Virus record (IMG/VR): IMGVR_UViG_3300023174_005175
Coordinates: 1 to 43,960 of that record
DNA: 43,960 bases
Reading direction: 5' to 3' (one strand)
Source of the DNA: a virus
Position 1 is the first letter of the stretch; each line of letters begins with the position of its first letter. A program made the position numbers and the translations under genes. The notes beneath the pieces are model-generated. The model had not been told where the DNA came from. It did not search any database and saw only the letters and a program-made list of their open reading frames with translations. This document shows positions 7,899-39,202 of the stretch, in pieces.

Positions 7899-7900
7899 AA

Positions 7901-11478: not shown

Positions 11479-12261
11479 TTAAACTCGAACAATCTCTAAG
11501 AAATAATAGGGGTTTCGGTTGATATCAAAATCATGAGGAACAAAATTGTTCTTGATTTTAAAACCATTAGCAGAGATCATGGGTTCAAAAATCTCTACAG
11601 GGCCTGCACCTCTATTTCCATTTTCACATAACCAAATAACTCCATCCTCAGTTAAGTATCTTCCAATATTATCGAAAAATTCTTGATGGGAAGTCCAGCC
11701 TACATCACTAAGTATACGTGTTTGATCGGCATCTAATTCTGAATTTATATCCGAGCTATGAGGTGGATTTCCTATAACAATATCAAACTTCTCATGGTAT
11801 GGTAAATTTGATATTCGATCAAGATGATAAGAAACTACTTTATCTTGGCAATTATTTTTTTCTATCGTGATGTTTGCATATTTAATAGCCAAATCATGTA
11901 GGTCCATCAGTGCTAGGGTTTCACACAACCCAAAATCCATCATTTCAAATCCGCAATATCCCGGACCGGAACACCAATCTAAGCATCTTTTAAAGGTCCT
12001 AGTTGGGTTTAATTTTTTATAATATATCGGAAAATTAGATCCCCAGTTTCTACCTCCTCCATCGAGGCCGTATTCATCATAAATTTTATATTTGGTGGGC
12101 CCTTTTGTTTCGTAAGGTCTACATTCCCACTTGCCATCGATTAAATCAAATTTTAAAGTATACCATTCATAATAATTGTTTTGAATACGAGGATTTTCCT
12201 CAGGGTCAAAAACGGGTTCATAATAATCTATTGGCAAACTAGGATCAGTTGGTCTTCTCAT
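11479..12261 (-). CDS. SAM-dependent methyltransferase with NPPH motif (paralogue A)
   Basis: The 260-aa protein has motif I as L-D-W-C-S-G-P-G-Y-C-G-F-E (94-106), the acidic segment L-A-L-M-D-L-H, and F-D-I-V-I-G-N-P-P-H (159-168). NPP(Y/F/H) marks N-methyltransferases of the HemK/MTS class that act on amide or ring nitrogens in protein, nucleic acid or small molecules. It is a clear paralogue of the 13085 protein, sharing L-D-G-G-G, the motif I spacing and N-P-P. This is the last gene of the 24.5-kb cluster; AAGGA stands before the ATG, after a 56-base gap. The substrate is unknown. Confidence 0.75.
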   Translation of the reverse strand: MRRPTDPSLPIDYYEPVFDPEENPRIQNNYYEWYTLKFDLIDGKWECRPYETKGPTKYKIYDEYGLDGGGRNWGSNFPIYYKKLNPTRTFKRCLDWCSGPGYCGFEMMDFGLCETLALMDLHDLAIKYANITIEKNNCQDKVVSYHLDRISNLPYHEKFDIVIGNPPHSSDINSELDADQTRILSDVGWTSHQEFFDNIGRYLTEDGVIWLCENGNRGAGPVEIFEPMISANGFKIKNNFVPHDFDINRNPYYFLEIVRV

Positions 12262-12317
12262 TTTATTCCTTTATTTTAATATTTAATAGATCAAGAGAGT
12301 AGTGATTTAAATTATAG

Positions 12318-13082
12318 TTAATGATACTTTCCATACATAGGAAAATTGATAGGAGCTAGATCATTAAGATATCTGGCTCGTATTTGCCCATATATCTTTG
12401 ATTCCTCATCACAGCAATTAAAATTTATGTTGTTTGAAATTTCTTTCATAAAAATACTAGATTTTTCAGTCAACAATTCTGGAAAATATTTTTTAGCATA
12501 ATCAAAGTGTTCTATGGCTGTAGGGTGGTGATTTGTGTCTTTTGAAAATTCCTGTAAAGATTGTTGACTTACGCAATTCTTATAAATTTCAGATGACATT
12601 TCAATCTCACAATCAGCTAATTGTAGAATTTCATTACTCATAAAATGACTGTTATCCATACTCATTATAAATTTAAAATTTACATTTGTTGCCCGGAACA
12701 ATTGAGTAGAATTAATTACCATTAACCAAGTATCATAAATTCCATAGTTTTGTTTCCAGAAATGATTTTTCAAAAATTTAGTTTTTTCATTGTTAGGCCA
12801 ATTCTGTGGACCACCATGACAACACCAAGACAATTTATTATCAATTTCTTCCAACCAATTTAATCTGCCAAAATTTGTTACACCTACAAGTACTAAATCA
12901 TTTTCATTAAATTTATAAAAAGCATTTGCCTCAATTAATCTATTATGAACCATTCGATTAGAACTGCCAGGCATACCGAGATTGTAGAATTGATCGTAAT
13001 TTATCCCGATAAAATCAGCCCAAGTTGGCCAATAAAACCAATGTGTAAAACTACAACCAAAGGCAAAACATCTTTTAATCAT
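12318..13082 (-). CDS. SGNH/GDSL-like protein (paralogue A)
   Basis: The 254-aa protein begins M-I-K-R-C-F-A-F-G-C-S-F-T-H with S11 in the position of the SGNH nucleophile. A second block reads N-L-G-M-P-G-S-S-N-R (Gly block), and a C-terminal T-N-H-H-P-T would supply His. The usual G-x-N-D block is replaced by V-G-V-T-N-F-G-R, so catalysis is likely but not proven. SGNH enzymes are esterases or acetyltransferase-type enzymes on glycans. It is about the same length as the 15120 protein and similar to it from end to end (G-C-S-F-T, A-D-F-I-G-x-N, G-S-S-N, Y-F-P-E). The next gene starts two bases upstream. Confidence 0.65.
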   Translation of the reverse strand: MIKRCFAFGCSFTHWFYWPTWADFIGINYDQFYNLGMPGSSNRMVHNRLIEANAFYKFNENDLVLVGVTNFGRLNWLEEIDNKLSWCCHGGPQNWPNNEKTKFLKNHFWKQNYGIYDTWLMVINSTQLFRATNVNFKFIMSMDNSHFMSNEILQLADCEIEMSSEIYKNCVSQQSLQEFSKDTNHHPTAIEHFDYAKKYFPELLTEKSSIFMKEISNNINFNCCDEESKIYGQIRARYLNDLAPINFPMYGKYH

Positions 13083-13084
13083 TT

Positions 13085-13798
13085 TTATACAGATTTAAAA
13101 TGAACTATTTTTAGATTTGGATCTTTTGGCATCATATCTATAACATTCTTAATAACAAAACCATTAGGTTCAGTAATTTGTTCAACAGTATAATGAATCG
13201 TAGTAGCGTGTAATGTGATAAAAATATCAGCATCTTCATTTAAATAATTTTTTATGTTGCCAAAAAATTCTTTATGTGTTTCAAAATTATCATCTACTGC
13301 GATTCTCAAATCATGAAGGATATGTGCTTCGGTATAACCATTTTCTTCTCCGTGCCTAATGAAGTTGTCTCCATTCATTGAATTGGGAGGATTACCAATT
13401 ACAAGATCCCATTTTTCCGTATTAGGTATGTTAGATATTTTTGGGGTAATATATCCTTTTACCTTATCTTCATATCCTAATCTTTTGGCATTATCTAGTG
13501 AGGTGTTTACTGCCAAGTCATAATAATCACTTAGAGCTAATGTATCACAAATACCATTAATTAATGCTTCAAATCCCAATATTGAATGCCCGCAACACCA
13601 TTCATACGCAGAATTATAGTGAGGTTTTCCAAAGTCGGCAATAGCTTTTAGGAAATAACTTCTATAATCTGTTCCGCCGCCATCCAGATGCCAATCACAG
13701 TAGAGTTTTTGCCCATTTGTTAATAAAACAAATTTTGAGACATGAGTATTCATCTTATCTAGTTCAGTTTTTGTATTTTCAGTCGGCCATGTTTTCAT
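13085..13798 (-). CDS. SAM-dependent methyltransferase with NPPN motif (paralogue B)
   Basis: I start it at ATG 13798 (M-K-T-W-P-T-E-N), with GAGGT eight bases upstream; a TTG at 13813 is also in frame. The product has 237 aa. Motif I is Y-E-W-C-C-G-H-S-I-L-G-F-E (65-77) and the catalytic tetrapeptide is N-P-P-N (136-139). Asn in place of the usual aromatic residue could weaken N-methylation. It aligns with the 11479 protein, so the two arose by duplication. It overlaps the 13779 SGNH gene and is closely followed by the 12318 SGNH gene. Confidence 0.7.
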   Translation of the reverse strand: MKTWPTENTKTELDKMNTHVSKFVLLTNGQKLYCDWHLDGGGTDYRSYFLKAIADFGKPHYNSAYEWCCGHSILGFEALINGICDTLALSDYYDLAVNTSLDNAKRLGYEDKVKGYITPKISNIPNTEKWDLVIGNPPNSMNGDNFIRHGEENGYTEAHILHDLRIAVDDNFETHKEFFGNIKNYLNEDADIFITLHATTIHYTVEQITEPNGFVIKNVIDMMPKDPNLKIVHFKSV

Positions 13799-14378
13799 TT
13801 TCCAATACCTCAATTAATTTTTTATAGACAATCTTATTACCCATTTCATTTAAATGATTTACAGATCCCCTATGGTTTTTAAATATATCATAAAAACTTA
13901 AAAAGTTATTAAACTCAAACACATCCTGGTAGTCAAAAAATGATAGATGTATTACAGATACGTTTTGAGTAAGATTAACAATTTCTTTACAAATCAATCT
14001 ATGAATAAATTTAGCATGGTCCATATCAAAAAAGTTTTCAAAATAATATTTTATATTTGATAAATCCGATCTCTTATCTACGTTCTCTACAACATCGGAA
14101 TAGATAAAATCACTATTGGCATGAAGTGGATCGTTTTTATGAACAGGGTGAGATGAACAATAAATCCTATAAGGGCTTGTATGACTTATCAATACAATAT
14201 CAAAGTTTGATAAATTTTGCGATGCCAACTGTTTATATATTTTATACTCGCCACAACCTGCTTGCGCTAGATTAGTAACTTGGTACCTCTGTCCTATTAG
14301 ATTTGGCCAACCTACAATGTTATACTTCACTTGCCAGTCTGCCGCAAAGCTATCGCCAGTTATCAATATTTTTTTCAT
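13779..14378 (-). CDS. SGNH/GDSL-like protein (paralogue C)
   Basis: The 199-aa protein has a classical-looking first block, I-L-I-T-G-D-S-F-A-A-D-W, with S10 as nucleophile, and A-Q-A-G-C-G-E-Y-K as the Gly block. S-H-T-S-P-Y-R stands in the third block, and N-H-L-N-E-M-G-N-K supplies the C-terminal His. This is the copy nearest to canonical GDSL enzymes in block I. It overlaps the genes on both sides (29 and 20 bases), so it is part of the coupled run. Confidence 0.65.
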   Translation of the reverse strand: MKKILITGDSFAADWQVKYNIVGWPNLIGQRYQVTNLAQAGCGEYKIYKQLASQNLSNFDIVLISHTSPYRIYCSSHPVHKNDPLHANSDFIYSDVVENVDKRSDLSNIKYYFENFFDMDHAKFIHRLICKEIVNLTQNVSVIHLSFFDYQDVFEFNNFLSFYDIFKNHRGSVNHLNEMGNKIVYKKLIEVLENENMAD

Positions 14379-15123
14379 AGGTTGAAATAATTAAATCAGC
14401 GATCAATTGTTGGCATTTTTTAGATGTATGATATGGAGATCCAAATTGAGATCTAGAATCTTCGTCAATGAGATGTTCAATTTCTATGCTAAGATATTGT
14501 GGCAAATAATTTCCTTGTTTATCTATTAACCAAGGAGCTTGATTATGAGTATCTCTAGGTATTTCGTGACAGATAAAATAAGGAATTTTAGAATTGTGTA
14601 ATTTGTGGTAATAAGAATAAATTACAAAATCATCTAATTTTCTTTTTAGATTTATATTGTAACAAGTTTCAAACCATGTATGAATAGGTTTGATAAATTT
14701 TTCTATATCGTTAACTTCATTTTTCCAATTTTTTAGATGGTAACTATCCTCAACAAAAAAATCTCGAATTGCCGTGCTTATAAATTTAGGATTTTTTGTT
14801 CTATGATACGATTTAAATTCAGGAATATGATAAATTTGATCATTTATCGAAACATGAGATATATCTTCGGTTAAAGGAAGTTCAATACGATCAACTGGTA
14901 CATTGCCAGCTAAAATCAAAGAAGGAGTAGGATACCAATCAATTGCTTTTTCAACTTGTAATGCCACAGAAAAATTACTACAACCTCCATTTGATAGAAC
15001 AACTAGGTCGGTATTTAATTTTTGAGCAACGATTTCAGCAAAGTGTGTGCCTGCATAATGATGGGTTTCGTGGGCAGGTGTCATGTAACTACCGCCGCAA
15101 ACTATCACAGGAGATTTATTCAT
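14350..15123 (-). CDS. SGNH/GDSL-like protein (paralogue D)
   Basis: The 257-aa protein starts M-N-K-S-P-V-I-V-C-G-G-S-Y-M-T, with S12 in the nucleophile position. L-S-N-G-G-C-S-N-F is the Gly block and S-P-Y-H-T-S-K-K-C-Q is the C-terminal His block. The third block is L-A-G-N-V-P-V-D-R. Its start codon overlaps the stop of the 15120 gene (ATGA). It is weakly similar to the other SGNH copies outside the blocks, so it is an older duplicate or an independent recruit. Confidence 0.6.
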   Translation of the reverse strand: MNKSPVIVCGGSYMTPAHETHHYAGTHFAEIVAQKLNTDLVVLSNGGCSNFSVALQVEKAIDWYPTPSLILAGNVPVDRIELPLTEDISHVSINDQIYHIPEFKSYHRTKNPKFISTAIRDFFVEDSYHLKNWKNEVNDIEKFIKPIHTWFETCYNINLKRKLDDFVIYSYYHKLHNSKIPYFICHEIPRDTHNQAPWLIDKQGNYLPQYLSIEIEHLIDEDSRSQFGSPYHTSKKCQQLIADLIISTYEKNIDNWR

Positions 15124-15887
15124 AATTTTGTTATTAGTTTATAATTTTGTTGGGATAGTCTAAAATCATACCATTTACCAGCTTGAGCTTGGTTATCACT
15201 AAGATCTAAATTAGTTTCTACAATTTTAAAAAATTCATCGGTTTTTTCATTATCAAATTCTGGAAAATACTGTTTAAAATATCTATAATGCTGTAACTGC
15301 GACGGATGAGTATCGACATAATTGTTTTCAAATCGATATCCTGAAACTTCGTTAGATTGCCTTGTTCGAGCAACATGCTCGTCGATAGTATCATCAATAT
15401 CATGTAATCTGTAAAATTCTTTTAAAAAAGATTGACATTCCTGATCGTCGATAAAATTTAAATTGTTAACAGCTCCATATATTCGATATTTCACTCCAAA
15501 ACTTTCTAATAATAAGCGGATACATTTAATGGCAATGGTAGATCTGTAGGATGCAAAATATTTACTGTCAAACTCATTAGCCCATACTTTACTTAACCTA
15601 GGATGTTCTGGCCAGATATGGAGAATATCTCCGGAATGAGTCCAATCAAGACTGTGTTTATCGATATAACTAAATCTTCCAATGCCAGTTGTACCTACTG
15701 TGACAAAATCATTTTTAGTAAAATTGAATTTTTCGTTGGCCTGTAATAATCTTTCTGCCATATGAGTATTTGAGCTTCCACTAACACCTAAATTTCTAAA
15801 TTCGTCAAAATTTACACCGATAAAGTCTGCTACCGACGCCCATGAATGATTAGTAAAGCTACACCCAAAAGCAAAATATCTTTTCAT
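15120..15887 (-). CDS. SGNH/GDSL-like protein (paralogue B)
   Basis: The 255-aa protein begins M-K-R-Y-F-A-F-G-C-S-F-T-N (S10), then A-D-F-I-G-V-N-F and N-L-G-V-S-G-S-S-N, with V-D-T-H-P-S-Q as the C-terminal His block. It is the nearest relative of the 12318 protein. A G-T-T-G-I-G-R-F segment replaces G-x-N-D. It follows the TPP-enzyme beta-like gene by three bases. Ester hydrolysis or acyl transfer on a sugar is the best guess. Confidence 0.65.
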   Translation of the reverse strand: MKRYFAFGCSFTNHSWASVADFIGVNFDEFRNLGVSGSSNTHMAERLLQANEKFNFTKNDFVTVGTTGIGRFSYIDKHSLDWTHSGDILHIWPEHPRLSKVWANEFDSKYFASYRSTIAIKCIRLLLESFGVKYRIYGAVNNLNFIDDQECQSFLKEFYRLHDIDDTIDEHVARTRQSNEVSGYRFENNYVDTHPSQLQHYRYFKQYFPEFDNEKTDEFFKIVETNLDLSDNQAQAGKWYDFRLSQQNYKLITKL

Positions 15888-15890
15888 AGT

Positions 15891-16433
15891 TTAATTTACA
15901 TAATATAACTCAGGATATTCAACTAGAACATGAACACCCCCAGATGTATAAGCCGTTTTATAGGTATCAAAAATATCAGCTTGATCTTTTAGATCATGAA
16001 ATTTTATATTCGGACACATACTTTCAAATTCTTTCAAATAGTTGCCTTTATGTTGATGTCCAGGATCTAGGGGTTTATCACTGCCCTTGCCTAATCTTAC
16101 TAATAATTTAATGTTTTTTCCAGTCATTAATTTAAATTTATCAACATGATTTATTAGTTGATTGGCGGCTAAAATAATAAAATCCCACCTAGGATAAAAT
16201 GTTACCACAGTCTTGCCTGTCATGGCTAGCCCTAAACTCATACCCATTTGAGTTTCTTCCATTACAGGTAATTCTACCATTAGGTTTTTATCAACACTGT
16301 TCAATGTTGTACTCATAGGATTACCGGCATAGACAATCTGCTGACCAATAAACACGATATCAGTCTGTTGACCGAGCCAGGTCATTGATTCGGTTAAGGC
16401 GTCTTTATAGGGCGATAATTGTGGACTATTCAT
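15891..16433 (-). CDS. TPP-dependent enzyme, E1-beta/transketolase pyrimidine domain only
   Basis: The 180-aa protein matches the pyrimidine-binding domain of E1-beta/transketolase enzymes. P-V-M-E-E-T-Q-M-G-M-S-L-G-L-A-M-T-G holds E59, the glutamate that activates the TPP aminopyrimidine. D-P-G-H-Q-H-K-G-N-Y-L-K-E-F corresponds to the G-x-x-Q-H-S active-site segment (H128). The C-terminal transketolase domain (about 120 aa in normal E1-beta) is absent. It probably pairs with the 23981 alpha-like subunit 7.5 kb away to form a minimal TPP enzyme. Substrate: a 2-oxo acid or ketose, with acyl or ketol transfer in sugar branching as one option; this is inferred. Confidence 0.8.
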   Translation of the reverse strand: MNSPQLSPYKDALTESMTWLGQQTDIVFIGQQIVYAGNPMSTTLNSVDKNLMVELPVMEETQMGMSLGLAMTGKTVVTFYPRWDFIILAANQLINHVDKFKLMTGKNIKLLVRLGKGSDKPLDPGHQHKGNYLKEFESMCPNIKFHDLKDQADIFDTYKTAYTSGGVHVLVEYPELYYVN

Positions 16434-17295
16434 TATTGTCTTGTTTGATACGATTGATTATACTGTCAGCAATAACTCGATGGCATTTTGGAGATGGGTG
16501 ATGATCTTTAGGAGTTTCTTTAAACTCGTCTTCGTCCCATTTAATAGTTAATTCAGGGTTATAAACTTTCCTCTGCATGGTTCCGGGACCCATTAGGTCT
16601 TCTATGCTTAGATATTCTATATCCTTATATTTGAAAGTGATAAATCGGTCATTCATCCATGAATCTTTTCTTATATGATTTACATAATCTCCCGGCCATG
16701 TATAGACATAGGTTTTAATTCCGCTGTTTTCACAGTCTTGCAAGAACGATTTAACATTATCAAATCCAGTTTGAATGTATTCTTCTATCCAGGTACTTAG
16801 ACTTATCTTCCTTGATTCGAGATATTTTATAAAATAATCTCGATTTTCGTCTTGATTTGTAGCATGAAAAGGAATATTAAATTGTTTTCCGTCTATTTCA
16901 AAGAAAAAGTTATCTCTTTGCCATTGGGTAAGCTGAAAAATAACATGTGAAATATCTGATTTTTCTATTTTGTAAATAGGGTAATGATTGTGCTTGTTGT
17001 CGCTTGAAAAGTTAAAACAATTCTTCCACCAGTTAACAGCACCTTCGTTGCTTCCTCCATTTTGAGGATGGACTAATTCAAATGAATTAAAGTGTTGGGC
17101 AACTAATCGAGGGGATCTAATTGTTTCGGCAAATCTTAGATGCGTTGCCTGAACAAAATTTGGATTATATTGATCGGGTGGTGGTTCGCGCAGACTAGAT
17201 AGATTGCTATAATAATAGAGTCCCTGTCCCCAAGTAAAACTACACCCGGCAAAAATCATGCCTTTTACAATTTTATTATTTTGTTTAGATATCAT
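16426..17295 (-). CDS. SGNH/GDSL-like protein (paralogue E)
   Basis: I start it at ATG 17295 (M-I-S-K-Q-N-N-K); the frame continues upstream to a TTG at 17343 inside the 17303 gene, and ATG 17259 is also possible. The product has 289 aa. I-F-A-G-C-S-F-T-W-G-Q-G gives S19 as the likely nucleophile. H-P-Q-N-G-G-S-N-E-G is the Gly block, Q-L-T-Q-W-Q-R-D-N the third, and D-H-H-P-S-P-K-C-H-R the C-terminal His block. D-H-H-P-S-P is the strongest Asp-His block of the set. It overlaps the TPP beta-like gene by eight bases. Confidence 0.68.
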   Translation of the reverse strand: MISKQNNKIVKGMIFAGCSFTWGQGLYYYSNLSSLREPPPDQYNPNFVQATHLRFAETIRSPRLVAQHFNSFELVHPQNGGSNEGAVNWWKNCFNFSSDNKHNHYPIYKIEKSDISHVIFQLTQWQRDNFFFEIDGKQFNIPFHATNQDENRDYFIKYLESRKISLSTWIEEYIQTGFDNVKSFLQDCENSGIKTYVYTWPGDYVNHIRKDSWMNDRFITFKYKDIEYLSIEDLMGPGTMQRKVYNPELTIKWDEDEFKETPKDHHPSPKCHRVIADSIINRIKQDNNE

Positions 17296-17302
17296 TTTAA
17301 AA

Positions 17303-17710
17303 TTACTTCCAGCTAATTTCCCAGTCTTTAAATTCAGCAGCAAGGCAATCTACCTTGTAGTCTTTACGGCCACCTACAAGTTCTTGAATTTTGTTTTTAG
17401 CAGTGTTTCTGATACCATTTAAACCGTGTGTTAACTCTAAATTATTTCCGTCTTTATTACCTTTTCGATAATTTGATTCGTTATGCCAAATATGTAAGTT
17501 CATTTGACTAACAACTACAATAGCACGAATTGTTTCGGCTGTTAATATTGCGTCCTTTTCGCTTAGTATTGTTTGAATATCATGACAAATATCGGCAATC
17601 TCTTGCGAATATTCTGTCCTATGTTCGGGAATAAAAACTTCTTTTAATTGAACAATACTTAGGCGATCAATTAAATCCCCCAATGTATGTTGATATCTGC
17701 GCTCGGTCAT
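17303..17710 (-). CDS. Conserved small protein of sugar clusters (DUF4254-like)
   Basis: The 135-aa, helical, mostly hydrophilic protein opens with H-T-L-G-D-L-I-D-R-L-S-I-V-Q-L-K-E. That L-G-x-L-I-D-R-L-S-I pattern recalls DUF4254-type proteins encoded beside glycosyltransferases in envelope polysaccharide clusters. No catalytic motif is visible. Its ATG overlaps the stop of the upstream epimerase gene (ATGA), so it is likely made in step with it. The family link is by resemblance of one motif only. Confidence 0.6.
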   Translation of the reverse strand: MTERRYQHTLGDLIDRLSIVQLKEVFIPEHRTEYSQEIADICHDIQTILSEKDAILTAETIRAIVVVSQMNLHIWHNESNYRKGNKDGNNLELTHGLNGIRNTAKNKIQELVGGRKDYKVDCLAAEFKDWEISWK

Positions 17711-18636
17711 AGATTTGTAAAACTCCTGTTGTTGTGGGTTATTGCTAAGGGATAAGCCTTTATTAGTTCGTTAATTCCATAATCAAGATCGTAGATAGGT
17801 TTAAACCCTCTATTTTCAATTTTTTTGTTTGAAACAATGTAATTTCTTTTATCAAAGTCTTCTTTAAATTCATCTTGTTTAATCACAAGAGTCGGAAGAT
17901 ATTGTTTAATTTTTTGGGCAAGCTCTAATTTTGTTAGATTGGCCGAACTTAGCCCTACATTGAATACCTCACCTTTGCAAGAATCGTAGTTTTCTATCAT
18001 AAATTCAAAAGCCCTAGCAACGTCCAACACATGAATATAGTTGCGTTTAAAATGTCCTTCAAACAATACCAAATAGCCATCCACTAAAGATTTGTAGACA
18101 AAATCATTAACTAGTAAATCTTGACGCATCCTAGGACTAACACCAAAAACTGTTGCTAACCGTAATACTATTCCATTTCCGTTATCTAAAACATATTTTT
18201 CGGCATCACACTTTGTTTGAGCGTATAGACTTAAAGGATTGAAAGGGCTTTCTTCTGTGATGATAGAGTCGCTAGAGCCATATTGGCTATTGGTATTAGG
18301 TATGATTAATTTTTGTAAAGGAGTTAATACATCAACAATGTCAACAATGTGTTGATAATTCACCATTATGGCCAATTCTGGATTATCTTTACAAGCTGGC
18401 ATACCTACAATTGCTGCTAGAGGAATAACGATATCGTGTTCTTTTACCAACTTTTGAAGTTGTTCTTTGTTTCTTACATCGCCCTTGATAAAATTTAGAC
18501 CTTTGTTGAATAGATGAAGCAAAGAAAGTTGTTTGTAGGTGAGATTATCATAGACCGTGACCGTGTGTTTGTCTAACAATTTTTCAGCAAGTGTGGAGCC
18601 TAAATATCCAGCCCCACCTGTTATAAGAACTCTCAT
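17707..18636 (-). CDS. NAD-dependent sugar epimerase/dehydratase (extended SDR)
   Basis: The 309-aa protein begins with the NAD-binding G-G-A-G-Y-L-G (7-13), has P-N-T-N-S-Q-Y-G (113-120) with the S/T of the catalytic triad, and an intact Y138-A-Q-T-K142. F-K-R-N-Y-I-H-V-L-D-V-A-R-A lies in the substrate-domain part. It is likely a nucleotide-sugar epimerase or 4,6-dehydratase; which sugar cannot be told. It is the only one of the three SDRs in the cluster with the normal catalytic tyrosine. Confidence 0.83.
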   Translation of the reverse strand: MRVLITGGAGYLGSTLAEKLLDKHTVTVYDNLTYKQLSLLHLFNKGLNFIKGDVRNKEQLQKLVKEHDIVIPLAAIVGMPACKDNPELAIMVNYQHIVDIVDVLTPLQKLIIPNTNSQYGSSDSIITEESPFNPLSLYAQTKCDAEKYVLDNGNGIVLRLATVFGVSPRMRQDLLVNDFVYKSLVDGYLVLFEGHFKRNYIHVLDVARAFEFMIENYDSCKGEVFNVGLSSANLTKLELAQKIKQYLPTLVIKQDEFKEDFDKRNYIVSNKKIENRGFKPIYDLDYGINELIKAYPLAITHNNRSFTNL

Positions 18637-18653
18637 GTTGTGGTAGTTTCCTA

Positions 18654-20271: not shown

Positions 20272-20283
20272 GTCTAAATAGAA

Positions 20284-20928: not shown

Positions 20929-20950
20929 AATAAACTCCTAATAGTTATAT

Positions 20951-23979: not shown

Positions 23980-23980
23980 G

Positions 23981-26568: not shown

Positions 26569-26578
26569 ACTTTTCTCG

Positions 26579-27322: not shown

Positions 27323-29534
27323 AACGCTTAATTGAAGTTAACGGAATAGTATATACTTCTTCCGGCTGACCAGACATTGAACTTTGATTAGGAACATCAA
27401 TGGCAAAATCTGAATGATTACTCCAGTCTCCTGATCCATTAAATTTATACTCAAAACTGAAATCTGTCTTGGCATTTAATTCAATCTCTTCATTTAACAA
27501 TTTAGCAAAATCATCTCCCGATCTACCTTCATCCAAACTCCAAGTGGGTTTGGCTAATTTCCTTGCCCTACGTGCCGTATTACTTTGAAGCCTACTAAAA
27601 TCAATAGCTAAAAATGGACCCATCCGGACTTGCTCATTATGTTTGTACTTATCGTCAGGGTTTGGTAGTTGAATAAATTTAATATCGAAGTCGGCAGTCC
27701 ATTGCCCTTCACGATTAATACTAAAATTAAAGATTGCTGTTAAGCCGTGAGGCCCATAAGTTGATCCAAATTCTCTTTCATCAATTTCAGGATTGAAAAG
27801 AATAGTAGCATCATATCCACCTCGACATCTCCACAACATTCTAAAGAAAACCCACATTTCATTGACCATTGTATCAGCATATGGATTAATTCCAGGTTTA
27901 ATTATATCATAATCAAATTTTTCATAATCAATTTGCCTAATATCATTTTTATTGTGTAAATTAATTTTATAGTGTTCTTTGGCTAGATTATATCTTATAG
28001 GATAGCTAAATGAATTTTGCGATGTGCCCTGTATAAGATCTAAAAAAATATGAAAAGATTTCACACGAATCATTACATGAGTTCCTCCCATGTCCAGGTC
28101 TTTGGTGATCCAATGGGTTAGATATTTTTGAAAACTTAAATTGAATCGATGCGGATTCTGTCCGGTTATTGTTTCCGGCCCTTGAGCAAAGCCAACACCA
28201 GCACCAATGTTATTGATATTATTATCTTTCATCCTCCAAAGGAATGAAATAGTATCAGCGAAATCTTGAAACTTCTCAGTAGGAAATCCTATGATCCAGT
28301 TTGTGGCGGCCCAAATACCTACTTTTTTACAGTCAATGAAATTCTGTTCCATTTCCTGAATAGTAACACCCTTGTGCATATCGTCTAGTACGTGCTGACT
28401 TCCTGACTCAACTCCGAAGTTAAACATGATACAACCGCCATCTGCAAGATCCTTAAGATATTCATAGGTCATTCTACCGTCACAACGAGCATAGCCTGTC
28501 CACTTTACTTTTAAATTCTTAGCCTTTAACGCTAAAGCAAAGGCACGCAACTCTTTAAGGTTACCATTTACAAGACTGTCAATGAACCAAATAACATCTG
28601 TGCCTTTGTTATAATAAAGCCATTCAACCTCTGTAACAAGATCCACAGCCTGACGTTGCCTATATTTCCAAAAATGTGTTTCTTCACAGAAACTACATTT
28701 AGCGGTACATCCACGACTGATTTCACTGTTGACACCGTTAGGCAAATCATACATACTAAAGTCGATACTTTCGTAATCGGGCATAGGCAGTCCATTAAGA
28801 TTTAATCTTTCGTCTTCGGGCTGTTTTAATATACGAGGATATTCGACCTGTTTCTTTTCTTCAACTTCATCTAATAAAACTAATAGATTATACTCTCCTT
28901 CCCCGACAACAATGTAATCATATTCTGGAATAGCTTCAAACCAGCTCTTGTGAGCATTTGGTCCTCCTACGGCAATTTTAATATGAGGGGCTAGTTGTTT
29001 GATACGTCTAACCATCCATTTGGTAGGTTCTTCACTAATATAGTATATGCTAAATCCTACTACGTCCGGTTTAAGGGCAAGAATCTTATCAACGTGTTCA
29101 TTTAACAACGGTTCTAATAAAGGGTGGACATCTCTATGATAAGTTTCACCTAACCAACGCCAACTGGCACTTGGATCCCATAGTCGAAAAGGTATTTTAT
29201 TGTTAGGGCGCCAGTCATCTCTATATTGCCTATAGGCTAAAACATTAATGTCAAAAATGTGTGTCTCGTATCCAGCGCTCTTTGCCACCCCACTAAGTCT
29301 AGCCAAACTGAACGGTGGCATATACGGGCTCCATTCAGGGCACAATACCAGCACAAGTTTTGTATTTCTTGTTTTATAGTCGATATAAATCGGAGTAAGA
29401 TTTTTCTGCTCGGTGGGTTTAGCATATGGAGCGATAGCCTCCATCATACTTAAATGCCTCTGATTAGAAATGTCTTCGTCTGGTCTATCCTTGGGCTTAG
29501 AATCAGAAGCTAGGTGTCTTAATGTAAAATCCAT
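27312..29534 (-). CDS. B12-binding-type radical SAM protein
   Basis: The 740-aa protein has an N-terminal cobalamin-binding-like Rossmann domain (about 58-230: D-V-V-G-F-S-I-Y, V-G-G-P-N-A-H, V-V-G-E-G-E). The radical SAM core follows, with R-G-C-T-A-K-C-S-F-C-E (C276, C280, C283) and N-F-G-V-E-S-G-S. The D-x-H-x-x-G of many B12 proteins is not seen, so B12 is bound base-off or not at all. A C-terminal ~250 aa extension is of unknown function. Enzymes of this class do methylations and rearrangements on unactivated carbons. It leads into an SGNH gene with overlap. Confidence 0.85.
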   Translation of the reverse strand: MDFTLRHLASDSKPKDRPDEDISNQRHLSMMEAIAPYAKPTEQKNLTPIYIDYKTRNTKLVLVLCPEWSPYMPPFSLARLSGVAKSAGYETHIFDINVLAYRQYRDDWRPNNKIPFRLWDPSASWRWLGETYHRDVHPLLEPLLNEHVDKILALKPDVVGFSIYYISEEPTKWMVRRIKQLAPHIKIAVGGPNAHKSWFEAIPEYDYIVVGEGEYNLLVLLDEVEEKKQVEYPRILKQPEDERLNLNGLPMPDYESIDFSMYDLPNGVNSEISRGCTAKCSFCEETHFWKYRQRQAVDLVTEVEWLYYNKGTDVIWFIDSLVNGNLKELRAFALALKAKNLKVKWTGYARCDGRMTYEYLKDLADGGCIMFNFGVESGSQHVLDDMHKGVTIQEMEQNFIDCKKVGIWAATNWIIGFPTEKFQDFADTISFLWRMKDNNINNIGAGVGFAQGPETITGQNPHRFNLSFQKYLTHWITKDLDMGGTHVMIRVKSFHIFLDLIQGTSQNSFSYPIRYNLAKEHYKINLHNKNDIRQIDYEKFDYDIIKPGINPYADTMVNEMWVFFRMLWRCRGGYDATILFNPEIDEREFGSTYGPHGLTAIFNFSINREGQWTADFDIKFIQLPNPDDKYKHNEQVRMGPFLAIDFSRLQSNTARRARKLAKPTWSLDEGRSGDDFAKLLNEEIELNAKTDFSFEYKFNGSGDWSNHSDFAIDVPNQSSMSGQPEEVYTIPLTSIKRYER

Positions 29535-29537
29535 AAT

Positions 29538-30512
29538 TTATTTGTTAAATGACGCTCGTTTAGGAATTATAATATCAGTCCCGCAGTGGCAATGTTGTTT
29601 TTTGCATATAATAGACTTTGGTCCTACTCCATCAATTTCGTCTAAAATATTACCAACATAACCTCCTTGACCACAGCTGGCCAAACTTACTGCGCCAGCT
29701 GGATTAATAAAAATAGCATCTCCTACATCACACTGCCAATTCATAAAAAAATTCTGTCTATCGATAATTATCTCATTGCTATTTGTATATGGAGTTTTGT
29801 CTTGATTCTCGTATCTAGAATAACTTACACAAAAATTAGTTTTTTGAGGTTTAGGAATAGTAAATTTTATGTCTACTGTATTTGTTTCTAAAAACTTGGT
29901 CATGGTTGGATCTTTATATTCCCAAGGTTTAGCATTGGTGGTCATTTCATCAAACAACGGTGTCCATTCAATAAAATAATTGGGCAATTTTTCTTTGAGC
30001 TCGTTACCAAAGTCTACAACTTCCCAAAATTTTTCTTCATGCATTAGCATCTTGCAGGAAAGATAATTCACTTTATCGCAAAGGAATTCAGCGTTGGCTT
30101 TGTAGATTTTCTTATTGGCAAATTCAATATGAAAACTGGCTACAACATCATCAAAGAGATGATGATGTTCTTTCCACCACTTCAAGGGTCTACTAAGATT
30201 TGTATTGACCGCTATGGTACATTCCGGTATTTCTTTTCTCAGGTATTCACAAATAGGAATAAGATTTTTCCATACGGTAGGTTCTCCGCCGCTAAAGAAA
30301 AACTTAAAGTTTTTATATCCTGAATTTTTGTATTTGGAAATAACAATGTCAAGGTTCTGTAGGTAAATTCCTAAGTTACCATTATTTTTTTCTGTACCAC
30401 TCCAATTGCCCGGATTACAATAACTACATTTAAAATTGCAATAGTTGTTTACTTGCCAAGTGACAGCAAGATATTTAGGTTCTGCTAAAATTTCAATTAA
30501 CTTCTTGCCCAT
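29538..30512 (-). CDS. Radical SAM protein (short, C-terminal Cys-rich segment)
   Basis: The 324-aa protein has C-N-F-K-C-S-Y-C (C25, C29, C32) close to the N-terminus and F-F-S-G-G-E-P-T-V-W as the SAM-binding segment. The C-terminal part has C-D-V-G-D-A-I-F...S-C-G-Q-G...C-K-K-Q-H-C-H-C, a SPASM-like set that may bind an extra cluster. It overlaps the 30497 gene by 16 bases and is followed by the B12 radical SAM gene after three bases. Substrate unknown. Confidence 0.84.
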   Translation of the reverse strand: MGKKLIEILAEPKYLAVTWQVNNYCNFKCSYCNPGNWSGTEKNNGNLGIYLQNLDIVISKYKNSGYKNFKFFFSGGEPTVWKNLIPICEYLRKEIPECTIAVNTNLSRPLKWWKEHHHLFDDVVASFHIEFANKKIYKANAEFLCDKVNYLSCKMLMHEEKFWEVVDFGNELKEKLPNYFIEWTPLFDEMTTNAKPWEYKDPTMTKFLETNTVDIKFTIPKPQKTNFCVSYSRYENQDKTPYTNSNEIIIDRQNFFMNWQCDVGDAIFINPAGAVSLASCGQGGYVGNILDEIDGVGPKSIICKKQHCHCGTDIIIPKRASFNK

Positions 30513-31774
30513 TCGTATACCTCTTTTAATTCCGGGACAACATCTAATAATTTTTCTTTTCTATGTTCATCCATTTCATCGTTTGCTTTTATAAATTCAA
30601 GTATTCCTTCTTTATTAGGAGAACCACTGTTTAAATTATAAACAACCATTTTAAAAGCATTAACTAAATCTTTATTAAAAGAATATTTTTCAATAGACTT
30701 GTTATATCTTAAAGTTAACTTTTCTTTAATATGGGCAGGAAGAATCATTATGTTTGCATACCACGGATATGTGAGCAAATTAAATCTAGCATTGGAATAC
30801 CATCTAGGATTATTAAAATCAAGAAGTTCATCAGCAACCAAACTATCAAAAAAATCCGGAAATCTATGAACATTCCAAATACTAATAGTAGGAGTAATTT
30901 GAAAATTAGCGTGTGGTACTTCTTCTTTTAATTTTTTAATATTTTTAATAATTTTTTTCCAGTCAGTACCTTTACGAATTATTTCAGCATGGTTTTCTTT
31001 TGCGTCTAAACTGGCCCATATTTTTAAATTAGGAAATTTTTTCCATAACTTAATTAAATCTCTATTTTTATACTTTAACACACTAAAATTAGTAGTATAA
31101 GTCAGTTCGACTTGATCAGTTAATTTATTTTCAATCCAATAGTCTAAGCACTCGTAATGTTCGGGCGTAATGATAACTTCTCCGCCAGCAAAATATACTT
31201 CGGTAACATCTTTAAGGTAAGGTTTGAGTTTGGTCATAAACTTTTGATCTTCGTTGCTGTTAACAACAATAGTTTTCATTCCAAAAAATTTCTCAAGTTG
31301 TTCCATACCCCATTTCTTTTTAACATATTCCTCTGCCCATTGGCTAGAACAGCCAGGGCCGCAACTTCGACATTTCATATTACAAAGATTACTGAATCGA
31401 ATATCCATATAACGCATTTCAAAATTATTAATACTACCGTCATCATTGGTATTATTAATCATGTCGATGTATTCAAACCCACGACGTTTATTATGACTTT
31501 GACGCATGGTCCAGGTTCCTAACAGTTCTAAATCATAACAGCGTTTACATTCATCGCTTGGCTTATCATTGAGCATATTAAGACGAAGTTGTTTAAAACG
31601 GTCGCTATTCATCATCTCAATGATAGATTCATCAGATTTAATTTTACCTACAGGCTTTTCACTATCAGCAACACAACAAGGCATAACATTTCCATTAGGC
31701 CAAGAATGAAAATGTATCCACGGTAATACACAAAAATGTTTGCTTTCTTTTATAAGTGTTTTAACATCTGCCAT
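30497..31774 (-). CDS. Twitch-domain radical SAM protein (paralogue 3)
   Basis: The 425-aa protein has an N-terminal Cys segment, F-C-V-L-P-W-I-H (C15), V-M-P-C-C (C33, C34) and C-K-R-C-Y (C76, C79), which looks like a twitch/SPASM half placed in front of the core. The radical SAM motif is C-N-M-K-C-R-S-C (C131, C135, C138), then Y-F-A-G-G-E as the SAM loop. A long helical C-terminal part follows. It is clearly paralogous to the 31776 protein; both have Q-L-R-L-N-M-x-N-D and M-R-Y-x-D-I-R-F-S-N. Confidence 0.83.
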   Translation of the reverse strand: MADVKTLIKESKHFCVLPWIHFHSWPNGNVMPCCVADSEKPVGKIKSDESIIEMMNSDRFKQLRLNMLNDKPSDECKRCYDLELLGTWTMRQSHNKRRGFEYIDMINNTNDDGSINNFEMRYMDIRFSNLCNMKCRSCGPGCSSQWAEEYVKKKWGMEQLEKFFGMKTIVVNSNEDQKFMTKLKPYLKDVTEVYFAGGEVIITPEHYECLDYWIENKLTDQVELTYTTNFSVLKYKNRDLIKLWKKFPNLKIWASLDAKENHAEIIRKGTDWKKIIKNIKKLKEEVPHANFQITPTISIWNVHRFPDFFDSLVADELLDFNNPRWYSNARFNLLTYPWYANIMILPAHIKEKLTLRYNKSIEKYSFNKDLVNAFKMVVYNLNSGSPNKEGILEFIKANDEMDEHRKEKLLDVVPELKEVYEWARS

Positions 31775-31775
31775 G

Positions 31776-33017
31776 TTATTCCTCTAAATATTGTAATTTT
31801 TCTAATTCAGGAAAAGTTTTAAAGAAGTCTTCGTTTCTTAATTTATCTTGAGACCTGGTATGCTTAAAAAATGTATCTTTGTTATCTTTCCAGGTATCCT
31901 CGTGATCGGCAAAATTTATGGCATCATTTACTAATCTAGTCAAACCTTGAAACTCATGGCCATTACTGCTTACAAGTTCCCGAGCCGATAGTTTAGCCAG
32001 TTGTTTTAACTCTTTTGGTAAACTCTTAGCTGAATAATAACTAGGATGAACCGCTAGATATAAGCTATTGTACCAATCATTTTTTTGTACAATATTTTTG
32101 TCCTTGAGATATCTATAAAAATCGCTCAGCGTCGGGTAATTGAACAAACTAAAAACAGTATTGATTTGAAATACCACGTAGTCTAAATTACGAAATGTTA
32201 ACAAATTACTTTCAACTTTTCCCCAATCAGTACCATGTCTTATCCATTCTGCTCGTTCGCCATAATGATCTATACTACAACTCAATTCAATTCTTTTGAA
32301 ATTTTTCCAAAGATCAAGTATGTTATGATTTTTATATTTAATGGCACTGGCATTGGTGTTATATCGAAGAGTTATATCAGTCCTTCCTTTTCTAATCATC
32401 TCTTCTAATATAACATAATGCTCATCTGTAATTAATGGTTCGCCACCAGCAAAATATGCTAAGTCGATGTGTTCTACATGATCTAGTACTTCATTTAGTA
32501 AATCGCCTTTATGGTCATCAGCATGAATTACGATAGGTCTATTCTTATTATAATGTCGTTCCTCAGCTGCCCATTGACTGCTAAATTCTGCTCCACAAGT
32601 TCTACATTTAAAATTACAAATATTACTAAATCTAATATCAAAGTAACGCATTTTAAATTCCGGAACGGTGCCATCTTCTAACGTAGTAGGAATAATTTCA
32701 TCAAATTTATTAGAAAAATTATCTTTGGAGTAAGTTCTAAAACTGTAAGGACCTGCTTCTTCGTGTTTATAACAGAAATTACAGATCTCACTTTTAACAT
32801 CGTTAATCATATTCAGTCTTAACTGTTTCATCTTATCACTATTAAAGGCCTGTTCTAATGTAATTTCTTTAGTATTGCCAAACGGGGTGGAATAATTATT
32901 ACTACAACAAGGATAGATATCTCCTTTAGGAGTAACATTTAAGTGAAGCCAAGGAAACATACAAAAAATTTTACTCTCTTTTAATAAGTGCTCCTTGTCA
33001 AATTGAATTTTATTCAT
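31776..33017 (-). CDS. Twitch-domain radical SAM protein (paralogue 2)
   Basis: The 413-aa protein has N-terminal C19 (F-C-M-F-P-W-L-H), C37/C38 (Y-P-C-C) and C79/C82 (C-N-F-C-Y), and the core motif C-N-F-K-C-R-T-C (C134, C138, C141), followed by Y-F-A-G-G-E-P. It matches the 30497 protein over its length and the 33020 protein in part. Adjacent genes are one and two bases away. Confidence 0.83.
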   Translation of the reverse strand: MNKIQFDKEHLLKESKIFCMFPWLHLNVTPKGDIYPCCSNNYSTPFGNTKEITLEQAFNSDKMKQLRLNMINDVKSEICNFCYKHEEAGPYSFRTYSKDNFSNKFDEIIPTTLEDGTVPEFKMRYFDIRFSNICNFKCRTCGAEFSSQWAAEERHYNKNRPIVIHADDHKGDLLNEVLDHVEHIDLAYFAGGEPLITDEHYVILEEMIRKGRTDITLRYNTNASAIKYKNHNILDLWKNFKRIELSCSIDHYGERAEWIRHGTDWGKVESNLLTFRNLDYVVFQINTVFSLFNYPTLSDFYRYLKDKNIVQKNDWYNSLYLAVHPSYYSAKSLPKELKQLAKLSARELVSSNGHEFQGLTRLVNDAINFADHEDTWKDNKDTFFKHTRSQDKLRNEDFFKTFPELEKLQYLEE

Positions 33018-33019
33018 TT

Positions 33020-34402
33020 TTAGACTTCGCTACACTTTTTAAAAAAGTTTTCCATTTCTGGAAATGTATTAACAAAGTCGGTACCGCGGCGGCGATCTAA
33101 CTCATTAAACCAATTATAAAAGTCATGCTGACCCTTAATAACATGTCTCTGTTCATATTCAGTTGTTCTCATATAATCAACCACTCGTCTAAACTTTTCA
33201 AATTCTATAGTGCTAAATTTAGTAGGATCGTGATCGTCGATATTATCTTTTATAAAATCAAGACTATCTATCATATAAGGCATGAATTGATCTTTTGGTA
33301 GTACATTAATATCGTATTGTAAAGGTTCTTTTAGATAAGGAGTATCAAATCTCACCATCTGTGGTTGATCTGTTTGATTATATTGATTATATTTTGCTCG
33401 CCACTCTAGTATTTTAATTAGAAGGTCTTTAAAGGTGGTCACTGAAAGTATATTGAATGTAATCATAAAACTAACAGGTTGACCAGTTGACCTAAGATAA
33501 TTGTCAAAGTTGTGTTCCCATATTGTTAAATCTAACCCAGTCCTAATATATTCAGCTCTAGGTCCCCAAGTATCAATACTGGTATATAATTTAAACCTTT
33601 TTATTCCTTGATTCTTTGTTAAGAAGTTAACATGGTCTATCATTTTATCAACCAATGCAGTCTTTACTCCTAGGTTACTGTTTATATTAAGTTCAAGATT
33701 TGGCATAGGATCTTCTCTTAAACTTTTTAACAGTTTCCAGGTACTAGTGTGCATTAATGGTTCTCCTCCAGTGATCCTGAGAATGGATAAAGTTTTACGC
33801 ATACTGGGCCACCAACGCCACCAAGCATCGACATAAGGATTTTCTTCTTCTCTTTCATATATCTTTAAATGATCTATATCACATCGATGATTTTCTACAG
33901 CAGTTACAGGCCCGTGTTCACGTATTTCATTATAGAATCTACTGCTGGCTTTAGGATGACAATATCCACATTTGAAATTACATTCATTACCAAATGATAT
34001 TTCAATATATTCAGGGTTAACATCTTGTAACCAATTTTCTTTATTGGATGCTTGTTTAAATCTATCTTCATTATAGATACTACTGGTTTTAATATGTCTA
34101 TCGCTAATATAATCTTTGCCCATATTTTCAATGTTCCAGCAGTATTGGCATCCTTTGGTTTGTATTCCGTCTAACATTTCCTTACGTTCAATCTTTTTAT
34201 GTATGGTATTGTGTAAGGCACTAGGATTATATCTAATTTCTTTTAGATCGATTTGATGGGGAGCAGGATGATAACAACTGTGTGTTTCTCCAGTCTGTAG
34301 ATATAAGGTTACATGATGCCATTTGGCTAAACAGAATGTAGGACTAACACCATTCATTATGGGTATGATTCTTTTAATCCTATCGTGGTTTGTTTCAGAC
34401 AT
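33020..34402 (-). CDS. Twitch-domain radical SAM protein (paralogue 1)
   Basis: The 460-aa protein has C24, C43 and C85/C88 (C-Q-Y-C-W) in front and C-N-F-K-C-G-Y-C-H-P (C141, C145, C148) as core motif, then R-I-T-G-G-E-P-L as the SAM loop. It is the most divergent of the three paralogues, with L-C-Y-type extra Cys replaced by C-Y-H-P. Same family, probably a different substrate or step. Its start overlaps the 34395 gene by eight bases. Confidence 0.82.
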   Translation of the reverse strand: MSETNHDRIKRIIPIMNGVSPTFCLAKWHHVTLYLQTGETHSCYHPAPHQIDLKEIRYNPSALHNTIHKKIERKEMLDGIQTKGCQYCWNIENMGKDYISDRHIKTSSIYNEDRFKQASNKENWLQDVNPEYIEISFGNECNFKCGYCHPKASSRFYNEIREHGPVTAVENHRCDIDHLKIYEREEENPYVDAWWRWWPSMRKTLSILRITGGEPLMHTSTWKLLKSLREDPMPNLELNINSNLGVKTALVDKMIDHVNFLTKNQGIKRFKLYTSIDTWGPRAEYIRTGLDLTIWEHNFDNYLRSTGQPVSFMITFNILSVTTFKDLLIKILEWRAKYNQYNQTDQPQMVRFDTPYLKEPLQYDINVLPKDQFMPYMIDSLDFIKDNIDDHDPTKFSTIEFEKFRRVVDYMRTTEYEQRHVIKGQHDFYNWFNELDRRRGTDFVNTFPEMENFFKKCSEV

Positions 34403-36020
34403 TGCGGACCTTTTTTATAAATTCTTTTTCTAGCCATTTTTGGTCATTGACCTTCAACAACATTTTTAAATTATCAATATTCTTTTTCACGAACTCTACG
34501 GCGTCCGCTGCTCCCTTTAGAGAATATTTGGTGAAAGGTTTACCAATATCCATATGCAACCATACCCTTAACTTTTCCTTTGCTATGCGATCGTCTGGGT
34601 TTTGTTCTAGGTGATAACATAACTTAACACATTCTCTAAAAGCACTACGCCAGGCAGAAAACTCATCAGTATTGAATCGTGTTTCATTACTGATATTGGG
34701 CATAACTGTGATATTTTTCATTACTTCTGTAGTCATGTCTAATCCCTGCCATAGCCAAGCATCTAATAATTTCTGTCTCGGAAACAGTTTAACACCACCA
34801 TACCCGTACTTTAATTCATTAATAGGGTTAAGACTTGTCCACACATAAGCACAATCTCTATTCCATATACTAGGTTGATAATCAAATGTCCACCTATCCA
34901 CTAACCAAGCATCTCCGTCTACTACATAAAACATATCTGTTGTAGCTAACTCAGCAGCACGACAGTGAGCAGCAAATATGCCTTTCACACCATCCACCCT
35001 TTTAGCGTGTGGGGCTCGCTCCAGTACCCTGGCCCAATTTTCTTCAGCATTGGATTCATTATAACTAATAAACACAACATCTAATTGGTCAAATATTGTT
35101 GGAGCAACTGTGCCTACGTATTTGATACCTTTAATATGTTCCACCGCTCGAACCTTGATAGCCCAAACATCAGTATCGCTATCTGTTAAACATCGTCTAT
35201 CCAATGTCCAAACATGCTCATATTCTAGTTCATGCCAGGGAATGACATAATCTAATTCATAGTTTAACTTAGGTAAAGCATTATTGTATTCTATATTGTA
35301 TTCAGGTGTTACAACCCCATACCATTTCCAGTCTCGTGGTTTACGATAAGCAGGGGAGAATTTAATCAACCACATAGGATCATCCTCTGGGCCATGAATG
35401 GTATCCAGCTGCCAGGCACATTCATGATCCAAATCATAGTAAGCCGGATAACATTGATCCACATCGATGGGAATAGCAGGTGCCGATGGGTTGCGTTCTA
35501 CTTTGATAGCAGGCATGAGATACCCCATATCCTTAACCCCCCGAATGGGTTTACCCAACGGTTGACAACTCATTGCCCATACGCGATCCTCTGTAGGATT
35601 AACTCGTGGATCTAAATACCAAACCAATTGATACCCACTGTCCCAAGGTTCGGGCTCAAACACTCCGTATGGATTATTTTCGAACTGCATGGTTCTGTCA
35701 AGGTCGCTGTTCTTACGCCAAACAAATCTTGGTTTGTCCAGCGTAATCTGCGTATATCCATTTTCCAATTTCCATTGTGATGGAAAATACTTAGCGACCC
35801 AAGTATTACGATAATTCCATACTATACAGGTATTAGTATCATCAGGTATATTATCAATATAATGGTGTAAGTTGATATCACGGGCTCCAGGATTAAGCAC
35901 CAATGTTTGACCGTCATTGGCCAATTCAAACAACGCCTGGTCGTATTCGTCAGAATTTCCAGTCCATTCAATTTGTTTAACCACGTCATAATCTAAAAAG
36001 TTAACGTCATCTAACCGCAT
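34395..36020 (-). CDS. Glycosyltransferase-like protein with three W-rich repeats and a GT-A core
   Basis: The first 290 of 541 residues carry three copies of a pattern V/A-W-x-L-D...V/M-W-x-x (W134/W148, W203/W217, W271/W286), about 65-70 residues apart. From ~310 a GT-A-like domain begins: D-V-V-F-I-S-Y-N-E-S-N, then Y-V-V-D-G-D-A-W-L-V-D with D368-G-D370 as the D-x-D metal site. It is the first gene of the 26-gene run. A leading glycosyltransferase fits a glycan pathway. The repeat region may bind the acceptor. Confidence 0.65.
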   Translation of the reverse strand: MRLDDVNFLDYDVVKQIEWTGNSDEYDQALFELANDGQTLVLNPGARDINLHHYIDNIPDDTNTCIVWNYRNTWVAKYFPSQWKLENGYTQITLDKPRFVWRKNSDLDRTMQFENNPYGVFEPEPWDSGYQLVWYLDPRVNPTEDRVWAMSCQPLGKPIRGVKDMGYLMPAIKVERNPSAPAIPIDVDQCYPAYYDLDHECAWQLDTIHGPEDDPMWLIKFSPAYRKPRDWKWYGVVTPEYNIEYNNALPKLNYELDYVIPWHELEYEHVWTLDRRCLTDSDTDVWAIKVRAVEHIKGIKYVGTVAPTIFDQLDVVFISYNESNAEENWARVLERAPHAKRVDGVKGIFAAHCRAAELATTDMFYVVDGDAWLVDRWTFDYQPSIWNRDCAYVWTSLNPINELKYGYGGVKLFPRQKLLDAWLWQGLDMTTEVMKNITVMPNISNETRFNTDEFSAWRSAFRECVKLCYHLEQNPDDRIAKEKLRVWLHMDIGKPFTKYSLKGAADAVEFVKKNIDNLKMLLKVNDQKWLEKEFIKKVRNV

Positions 36021-39196: not shown

Positions 39197-39202
39197 AAAA
39201 CT

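Follow-up and report, generated by a model that had tools for sequence, protein, structure and literature searches.

Phage islands of sugar-enzyme genes, and radical S-adenosylmethionine (radical SAM) cassettes inside them, are already known (PMC7029224, PMC7824862), and 12 radical SAM genes have been described in one T4-like genome (PMC5332604). The closest phage systems are the lipopolysaccharide (LPS) and host-recognition clusters of cyanophages and pelagimyophages (P-SSM2, S-SM2, P-TIM68 and the pelagimyophage host-recognition cluster, PMP HRC). These are large one-strand blocks of sugar enzymes with short-chain dehydrogenases/reductases (SDRs), glycosyltransferases and cupin epimerases, and in the PMP HRC radical SAM cassettes lie within hypervariable islands. 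Two further systems bear comparison, namely the GDP-heptose pathway of Campylobacter jejuni (Cj1427, Cj1430, Cj1428) and the sugar-branching enzymes that resemble pyruvate dehydrogenase (PDH) E1 alpha/beta (Plm8/Plm9, avilamycin, aldgamycin, KbDH). Here we describe a 26-gene run in the IMG/VR virus record IMGVR_UViG_3300023174_005175. The window is the full 43,960-base record, which is probably a genome fragment itself. The run forms a phage glycan island that occupies a fixed site and can be replaced there. Gene content, homologies, conserved motifs, linkage and modularity are observed, and the reactions, their order and the acceptor are deduced from them. As to its product, the account we favour, which has close to an even chance of being right as a whole, is a GDP-heptose core that is branched at C4 by a thiamine pyrophosphate (TPP) enzyme, tailored, and attached most likely to a virion fibre or adhesin. 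In contrast to the cyanophage and pelagimyophage clusters, this island has a five-gene radical SAM line with a B12 enzyme, six SGNH-like proteins, a Cj1427-type dehydrogenase and relatives in which the site is empty.

On the minus strand, 26 open reading frames (ORFs) follow in succession from 36020 down to 11479. All but one of the 25 internal gaps (24) are shorter than 25 nt, with overlaps at 13 of them, and the remaining gap measures 56 nt. The GC content is 0.30-0.38 within the run versus 0.39-0.43 outside, which is consistent with imported DNA. Promoter-like and terminator-like sites in the run were found by scans at about chance level, and are uninformative. An earlier, sequence-only reading of this DNA had already described the collinear run, and its gene list was mainly right: five radical SAM proteins (PF04055), an RmlC-type epimerase, three SDRs (of the extended type) and split TPP subunits were all recovered with Pfam. 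It overlooked the B12-binding domain of the protein at 27312, the N-terminal twitch/SPASM regions of three radical SAM proteins (NF033640), two GT9-like proteins (39104 and 40183), a 2-oxoglutarate (2OG) oxygenase (10885) and an IscA-type carrier (7562).

The island character of the run is seen in relatives found by searches with its right neighbour (10221) and left neighbour (40183). These have common flanks and differing interiors: in loci that include both flanks the interior measures about 19.7 kb (L097), 7.0 kb (L144, L145) and 8.3 kb (L153), whereas that of the window measures 25.3 kb. Two relatives, L146 and L160, have no enzymes at the site, and their structural genes pass directly into a cell-wall hydrolase or ligase gene. 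Constant flanks around an exchangeable sugar-gene interior are the pattern of a hypervariable island.

Within the island, two modules (A and B) were distinguished by tblastn comparison of all window proteins with 29 IMG/VR loci found via the TPP alpha subunit (E1a) and 80 found via the B12 radical SAM protein, which has 183 IMG/VR matches overall. Many of these loci are incomplete, for example ending at contig ends. Module A has the order 34395-rS1-rS2-rS3-rS4-B12-SG1, and among the 80 B12 loci the pairs rS3-rS4 (46), rS2-rS3 (43), rS1-rS2 (30) and B12-SG1 (29) are adjacent; E1a and RmlC are also present in only 10 of them. Module B has the order RmlC-E1a-GTb-SDRc-2OG-SDRb-SDRa-DUF4254-SG2-E1b. 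The 29 E1a loci contain E1b in 25 cases, RmlC in 24, SDRc in 22, SDRa in 21, SDRb in 20 and the B12 enzyme in just 4, and the locus L016 is near-syntenic with most of the 26-gene run. Since relatives carry the modules separately, and some sites are empty, the earlier view of the 26 genes as one set is wrong. That reading had named relatives with single genes of the set as an observation that would overturn it, and what was found comes close, except that modules, and not mostly single genes, separate.

Among 50,697 phage records, a megablast search with the cluster gave no match, tblastn searches with the B12 radical SAM and DUF4254-like proteins gave none, and rS3 was detected in only 3 weak records. 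The radical SAM line is widespread in uncultivated (IMG/VR) phages and nearly absent from deposited ones.

The core of module B aligns with the Campylobacter GDP-heptose pathway, and this homology-based comparison is the firmest part of the explanation; where the earlier reading knew of no pathway with this exact set, the core at least is recognisable. SDRa (17707..18636, minus strand, as are all genes of the run) matches PDB 6vo6 over residues 2-300 (E 2.7e-96), with the next structure at 6.6e-20. The title of 6vo6 in the PDB table is putative sugar-nucleotide epimerase/dehydratase, and we take it to be Cj1427. The catalytic Tyr-Lys pair is kept in SDRa (YAQTK), and YxxxK is intact in all rows that span the site. 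SDRa belongs, on sequence, to the Cj1427 family, and is predicted to oxidize C4 of GDP-heptose; the chemistry of Cj1427 itself has been described (PMC10680097). The RmlC-type 3(,5)-epimerase (24607..25152; PF00908, 1e-35) is nearest the GDP-4-keto-heptose epimerases of that pathway type (7an4, 7m14 and 8dcl, 1e-36 to 1e-40, versus 1e-26 for dTDP-RmlC), and would epimerize the 4-keto sugar at C3 and/or C5.

The other two SDRs, SDRb (18654..19616; PDB 1bws, 2e-28) and SDRc (21627..22610; PDB 7ll6, 1e-18), match GDP-L-fucose synthase most closely, and the C4 reductases of the C. jejuni pathway are likewise GDP-fucose-synthase-like SDRs. However, both lack the catalytic tyrosine. That column contains Val in 24 of 24 rows for SDRb and Pro, Ala, Gly or Ser in 27 of 27 for SDRc, in which PGWTK replaces YxxxK; both proteins retain the Lys and upstream Ser. 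Val likewise stands at this position in two SDRb homologues from SAR11. As a control, 35 of 35 SDR paralogues from the same contigs (22-29% identity) keep the tyrosine, for example as YGWEK. The loss in SDRb and SDRc is a conserved, specific change, and because YxxxK is absent they are not filed as members of the GDP-fucose-synthase/C4-reductase group. The phage locus further differs from the C. jejuni pathway by the addition of the TPP pair, the radical SAM proteins and the 2OG oxygenases, and by the absence of heptose-1-phosphate genes from the contig.

The TPP pair consists of two short subunits. E1a (23981..24610; 209 aa; PF00676) is of E1alpha type with a conserved GD...EDN motif, and E1b (15891..16433; 180 aa; PF02779, NF006667; Transket_pyr only) is of E1beta type and has the activating Glu, as PVxE[ED], in 26 of 26 sequences, so that the TPP motif and activating Glu of an E1alpha/E1beta-type pair are both present. 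E1b is 169-191 aa in all loci, the pyrimidine domain alone, and lacks the transketolase C-terminal (TKC) domain; the claim is therefore that the pair works like the PDH-like sugar-branching enzymes, not that it is a member of them. For such pairs in paulomycin and avilamycin biosynthesis, a proposal with genetic support is that a C2 unit from pyruvate is transferred to C4 of the keto sugar (PMC4802897; review PMC12247030). Like module B, they combine a TPP pair with a 4-keto former and an RmlC epimerase in a nucleotide-sugar pathway, whereas the phage subunits are short, tied to GDP-heptose genes, located in phages and surface-glycan clusters and known from sequence. By this analogy, the most likely role of E1a/E1b is to branch GDP-heptose at C4 with two carbons from pyruvate: pyruvate (or another 2-oxoacid) would be decarboxylated and the two-carbon unit placed on the C4 ketone, to give a C4-branched higher sugar.

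A small transketolase, supplying sedoheptulose-7-phosphate or another sugar precursor, is an improbable alternative for this pair. Sedoheptulose-7-phosphate is the heptose precursor (PMC10680097), and the cyanophages S-SM2 and P-TIM68 carry E1a-E1b in fused form near phosphoheptose isomerase, kinase and nucleotidyltransferase genes, the S-SM2 homologue being annotated as 'transketolase central region'. However, the E1a profile favours PDH E1alpha (1.6e-18) over (split) transketolase (1e-6 or weaker), the cellular locus L117 has an additional split transketolase-like pair (by eye), and the TPP pair keeps company with 4-keto-forming enzymes.

This company is evident in cellular genomes, where an E1a profile search of GTDB species genomes detected at least 11 loci; the names hddA, hddC and gmhB used for their genes are among the best NCBIfam families, mostly with scores that fall short of the strict cut-offs, and other names were given by eye. 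In Omnitrophota L122 the order, among the matches listed, is SDRa-hddA-hddC-E1a-E1b. In Verrucomicrobiae L121 it is SDRa-hddC-hddA-E1a-E1b-aminotransferase-B12 radical SAM, adjoining flagellin genes; this combination of GDP-heptose, TPP and B12 radical SAM genes with flagellin makes the stretch (L121:1-14000) a candidate flagellin glycosylation locus. The order in Pelagibacteraceae L120 is E1a-E1b-hddC/gmhB-gmd-rmlC-hddA-SDRb-Nudix-B12 radical SAM-aldo/keto reductase, and L117 is similar. In phages L013-L015, SDRa, SDRb and SDRc are all missing and a Gmd-like dehydratase lies between E1a and E1b, so that here too the TPP pair is joined by a 4-keto former. These three carry an alternative phage module, RmlC-E1a-Gmd-E1b plus a phosphoheptose-isomerase-like gene. 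Either SDRa or Gmd thus occurs with E1a in phage and cellular loci alike, and in these gene orders a 2-oxoacid-type TPP enzyme accompanies heptose activation and a 4-keto-forming step.

In a tree of E1a sequences, which has several long branches and an arbitrary root, phage and cellular sequences are interleaved and at least five label changes are forced by starred branches, which suggests that the pair was transferred between phages and cells on more than one occasion. One Prochlorococcus single-cell row (L127), whose TPP enzyme closely resembles the P-TIM68 phage enzyme, is perhaps a phage contig or comes from an infected cell.

Several observations weigh against a branched GDP-heptose destined for the virion. 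SDRs without the tyrosine are ill-suited to act as a normal C4 reductase, and hddA, hddC, gmhA and gmhB are absent from the 44-kb fragment. The C-terminal domain of known E1beta and transketolase enzymes is lacking in E1b. Distant TPP pairs (L031-L033 and the cyanophages) sit with other genes, and the acceptor sugar may therefore vary. Finally, one of the putative glycosyltransferases resembles the GT-B fold only weakly, and the Pelagibacter relatives lie among polysaccharide genes, which points to a surface glycan in preference to a virion protein.

Module A is dominated by the radical SAM line. The first three proteins, rS1 (33020..34402; N-terminal twitch; E 8e-92), rS2 (31776..33017; N-twitch SPASM; 7e-110) and rS3 (30497..31774; N-twitch SPASM; 7e-110), are members of the NF033640 family of twitch-domain radical SAM proteins, with scores of 308-368 bits far over the curated cut-off of 170. 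The CxxxCxxC motif is present in 40 of 40 aligned sequences for rS1 and 41 of 41 for rS3, and the radical SAM cysteines have no exception in any aligned row. To our knowledge, no function has been assigned to NF033640. What differs here is that its members are successive paralogues, followed by rS4 (29538..30512; PF04055, 4e-8), the neighbour of rS3 in relatives, and a 740-aa B12-binding radical SAM protein (27312..29534; PF02310 and PF04055).

An IscA-like A-type Fe-S carrier (7562..8038, minus strand; PF01521) is encoded in the right flank. All 12 related records with at least three radical SAM genes contain such a carrier, compared with 3 of the 8 that have one at most (Fisher p 0.0036), so that its presence tracks radical SAM number; with 20 records that are related and often fragments, this is suggestive only. 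The annotated start of the window's carrier is probably too far upstream, as homology begins near residue 39-52.

The 2OG oxygenases, methyltransferases and SGNH proteins of the run would, together with SDRb, SDRc, the radical SAM line and the B12 enzyme, tailor the sugar, and the construction and decoration of an unusual carbohydrate, as first suggested, is supported in outline. Two 2OG-Fe(II) oxygenases (19609..20271, PF13640; 20951..21634, PF13640/PF13661) have an intact HxD...H. The third 2OG protein that had been listed (20284..20928), between them, is indeed a paralogue, but has no Pfam match and has lost the HxD and the distal His, a loss shared with its sole orthologue, in L016; it is possibly a non-catalytic partner. 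A further 2OG oxygenase (10885..11469, plus strand; PF13640, 9e-11) lies at the right edge of the run, and its relatives adjoin rS1 in L016, L070-072, L088 and L105.

Of the two NPP-motif methyltransferases, MT1 (11479..12261) was confirmed through the MTS family (PF05175, 1e-9; phrog_35227), and MT2 (13085..13813) is its relative by motif; in related loci, 13 adjacent pairs of MT2 and the B12 radical SAM gene were counted. None of the six SGNH proteins that had been proposed matched Pfam, and one is supported by structure. This is SG1 (26579..27322), for which a PDB profile search by sequence gave nothing, whereas an AlphaFold2 (AF2) model (pLDDT 94.7) matched TesA and CE2 carbohydrate esterases in Foldseek (prob 1.00), which makes it an SGNH-fold protein of esterase/acyltransferase-like type. 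The other five are motif-based: SG2 (16426..17343), whose orthologues adjoin E1b; SG3 (15120..15887), which cross-matches SG6 (12318..13082); SG4 (14350..15123); and SG5 (13779..14378), with a GDSFA motif. The DUF4254-like protein (17303..17710) has a family match that falls short of the Pfam cut-off (E 0.005) and is highly conserved among phages (69-86%).

Support for the three glycosyltransferase-like proteins is uneven. GTa (25153..26568) is GT-B-like, its AF2 model (pLDDT 80.6) having weak matches to trehalose-6-P synthase, VldE and BshA (TM about 0.35), and GTb (22600..23979) is its paralogue by alignment, with a common TEK...GFKTF...ESYD block. The 541-aa protein that opens the run (34395..36020), labelled 'GT2', has a DxD-like VVDGDAW by eye and no Pfam, PHROG or PDB match; genes of its type are duplicated upstream of rS1 in relatives. 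In the favoured account, the sugar would be attached by these three within the cytosol, a virion fibre or adhesin being the most likely acceptor.

The acceptor is the weakest part of the explanation: we lean towards a virion protein, as would fit the flagellin genes next to one cellular relative, with the host envelope as a close rival. A transmembrane scan of the run gave no convincing segment, the one value over threshold being in E1a, a soluble fold; with no membrane protein, the run is without flippase, polymerase, ligase or membrane-bound initiating transferase. Both contig ends (2-2533 and 42616-43878, minus strand) encode tail-fibre proteins with collagen-like repeats (G-P-Q-G-P-S), so that fibre genes flank the island on both sides. 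Both points argue against the same sugar chemistry being used to remodel the host LPS O-chain or capsule through the host's lipid-carrier machinery, excluding other phages or altering receptors and leaving the virion unglycosylated. Even so, host remodelling has a lesser but substantial chance of being correct: it is the published reading of comparable cyanophage and pelagimyophage clusters (PMC7824862, PMC7029224), in SAR11 the related TPP-heptose genes are surrounded by genes for polysaccharides, accompanied by a large membrane protein, and a polymorphic fixed site fits serotype-like variation.

Two other products were weighed. That the cluster yields a small metabolite or toxin that diffuses away, on the model suggested for a second cyanophage cluster, is very unlikely. 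The mix of radical SAM, 2OG, methyltransferase and TPP enzymes resembles antibiotic sugar pathways, and a halogenated metabolite has been proposed for S-SSM6a (PMC7824862), but no scaffold enzyme (non-ribosomal peptide synthetase, polyketide synthase, carbamoyltransferase, halogenase), exporter or precursor peptide was seen, three glycosyltransferase-like genes are present, and cellular relatives lie by flagellin or polysaccharide genes. The earlier suggestion of a free small metabolite thus gained no positive support. Least probable of all is hypermodification of the phage DNA by sugars. Phages do glycosylate their DNA, and 2OG and radical SAM enzymes are known in base modification. However, no thymidylate synthase-like, hydroxymethylase or base-modifying gene was recognised on the contig, and relatives of E1a, E1b and Cj1427 are found in cell-surface glycan clusters.

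At the left border of the island is a structural or adhesin-like protein (36076..39258, minus strand), whose homologues, in split form, adjoin the empty site of L146 and L160. By eye, its C-terminus and that of the counterpart at L160:5303-8281 resemble a Hint (hedgehog/intein-like) autoprocessing domain (GDxLxLLS ... SGIRLTCSDNTPLTL). The GT9-like proteins (39104-39967 and 40183-40905, plus strand; by eye) serve as the left flank marker in relatives. A T4-like origin was considered and not adopted: four large relatives (L041, L053, L018, L029) have strong Gp23 matches, and the close flank relatives lack such matches. Separately, several 2OG oxygenases of the contig could hydroxylate proline in the collagen-like tail fibres, an idea without further evidence.

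A more specific form of the virion proposal is speculative and, on present evidence, rather doubtful. It would have a C4-branched nine-carbon GDP-sugar made by a minimal TPP enzyme of two subunits and two tyrosine-independent SDRs, then worked on by four radical SAM proteins and a cobalamin radical SAM protein, to give an undescribed glycan on virion adhesins that is module-swapped at one site.

In a literature search whose coverage omits most subscription journals, nothing was found on radical SAM together with phage LPS and transketolase, or on a phage with GDP-heptose. As far as this partial coverage shows, the GDP-heptose assignment, the short TPP pair and its linkage, the pair of SDRs without tyrosine, the conserved order of radical SAM and B12 genes and the empty-site comparison are new. 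Read in this way, the 26-gene block can be tested as a pathway whose substrates (GDP-heptose, pyruvate) are named and whose mass shifts are predicted. The findings also point to a TPP sugar-branching enzyme in shortened form that phages share with SAR11 and further uncultivated cells, as well as to two SDR families in which the fold is kept and the catalytic tyrosine lost. Uncultivated phages widely carry a line of several radical SAM enzymes that is nearly invisible in cultured phages, and if it is true that the glycan sits on virions, virion chemistry would extend far past simple hexose addition.

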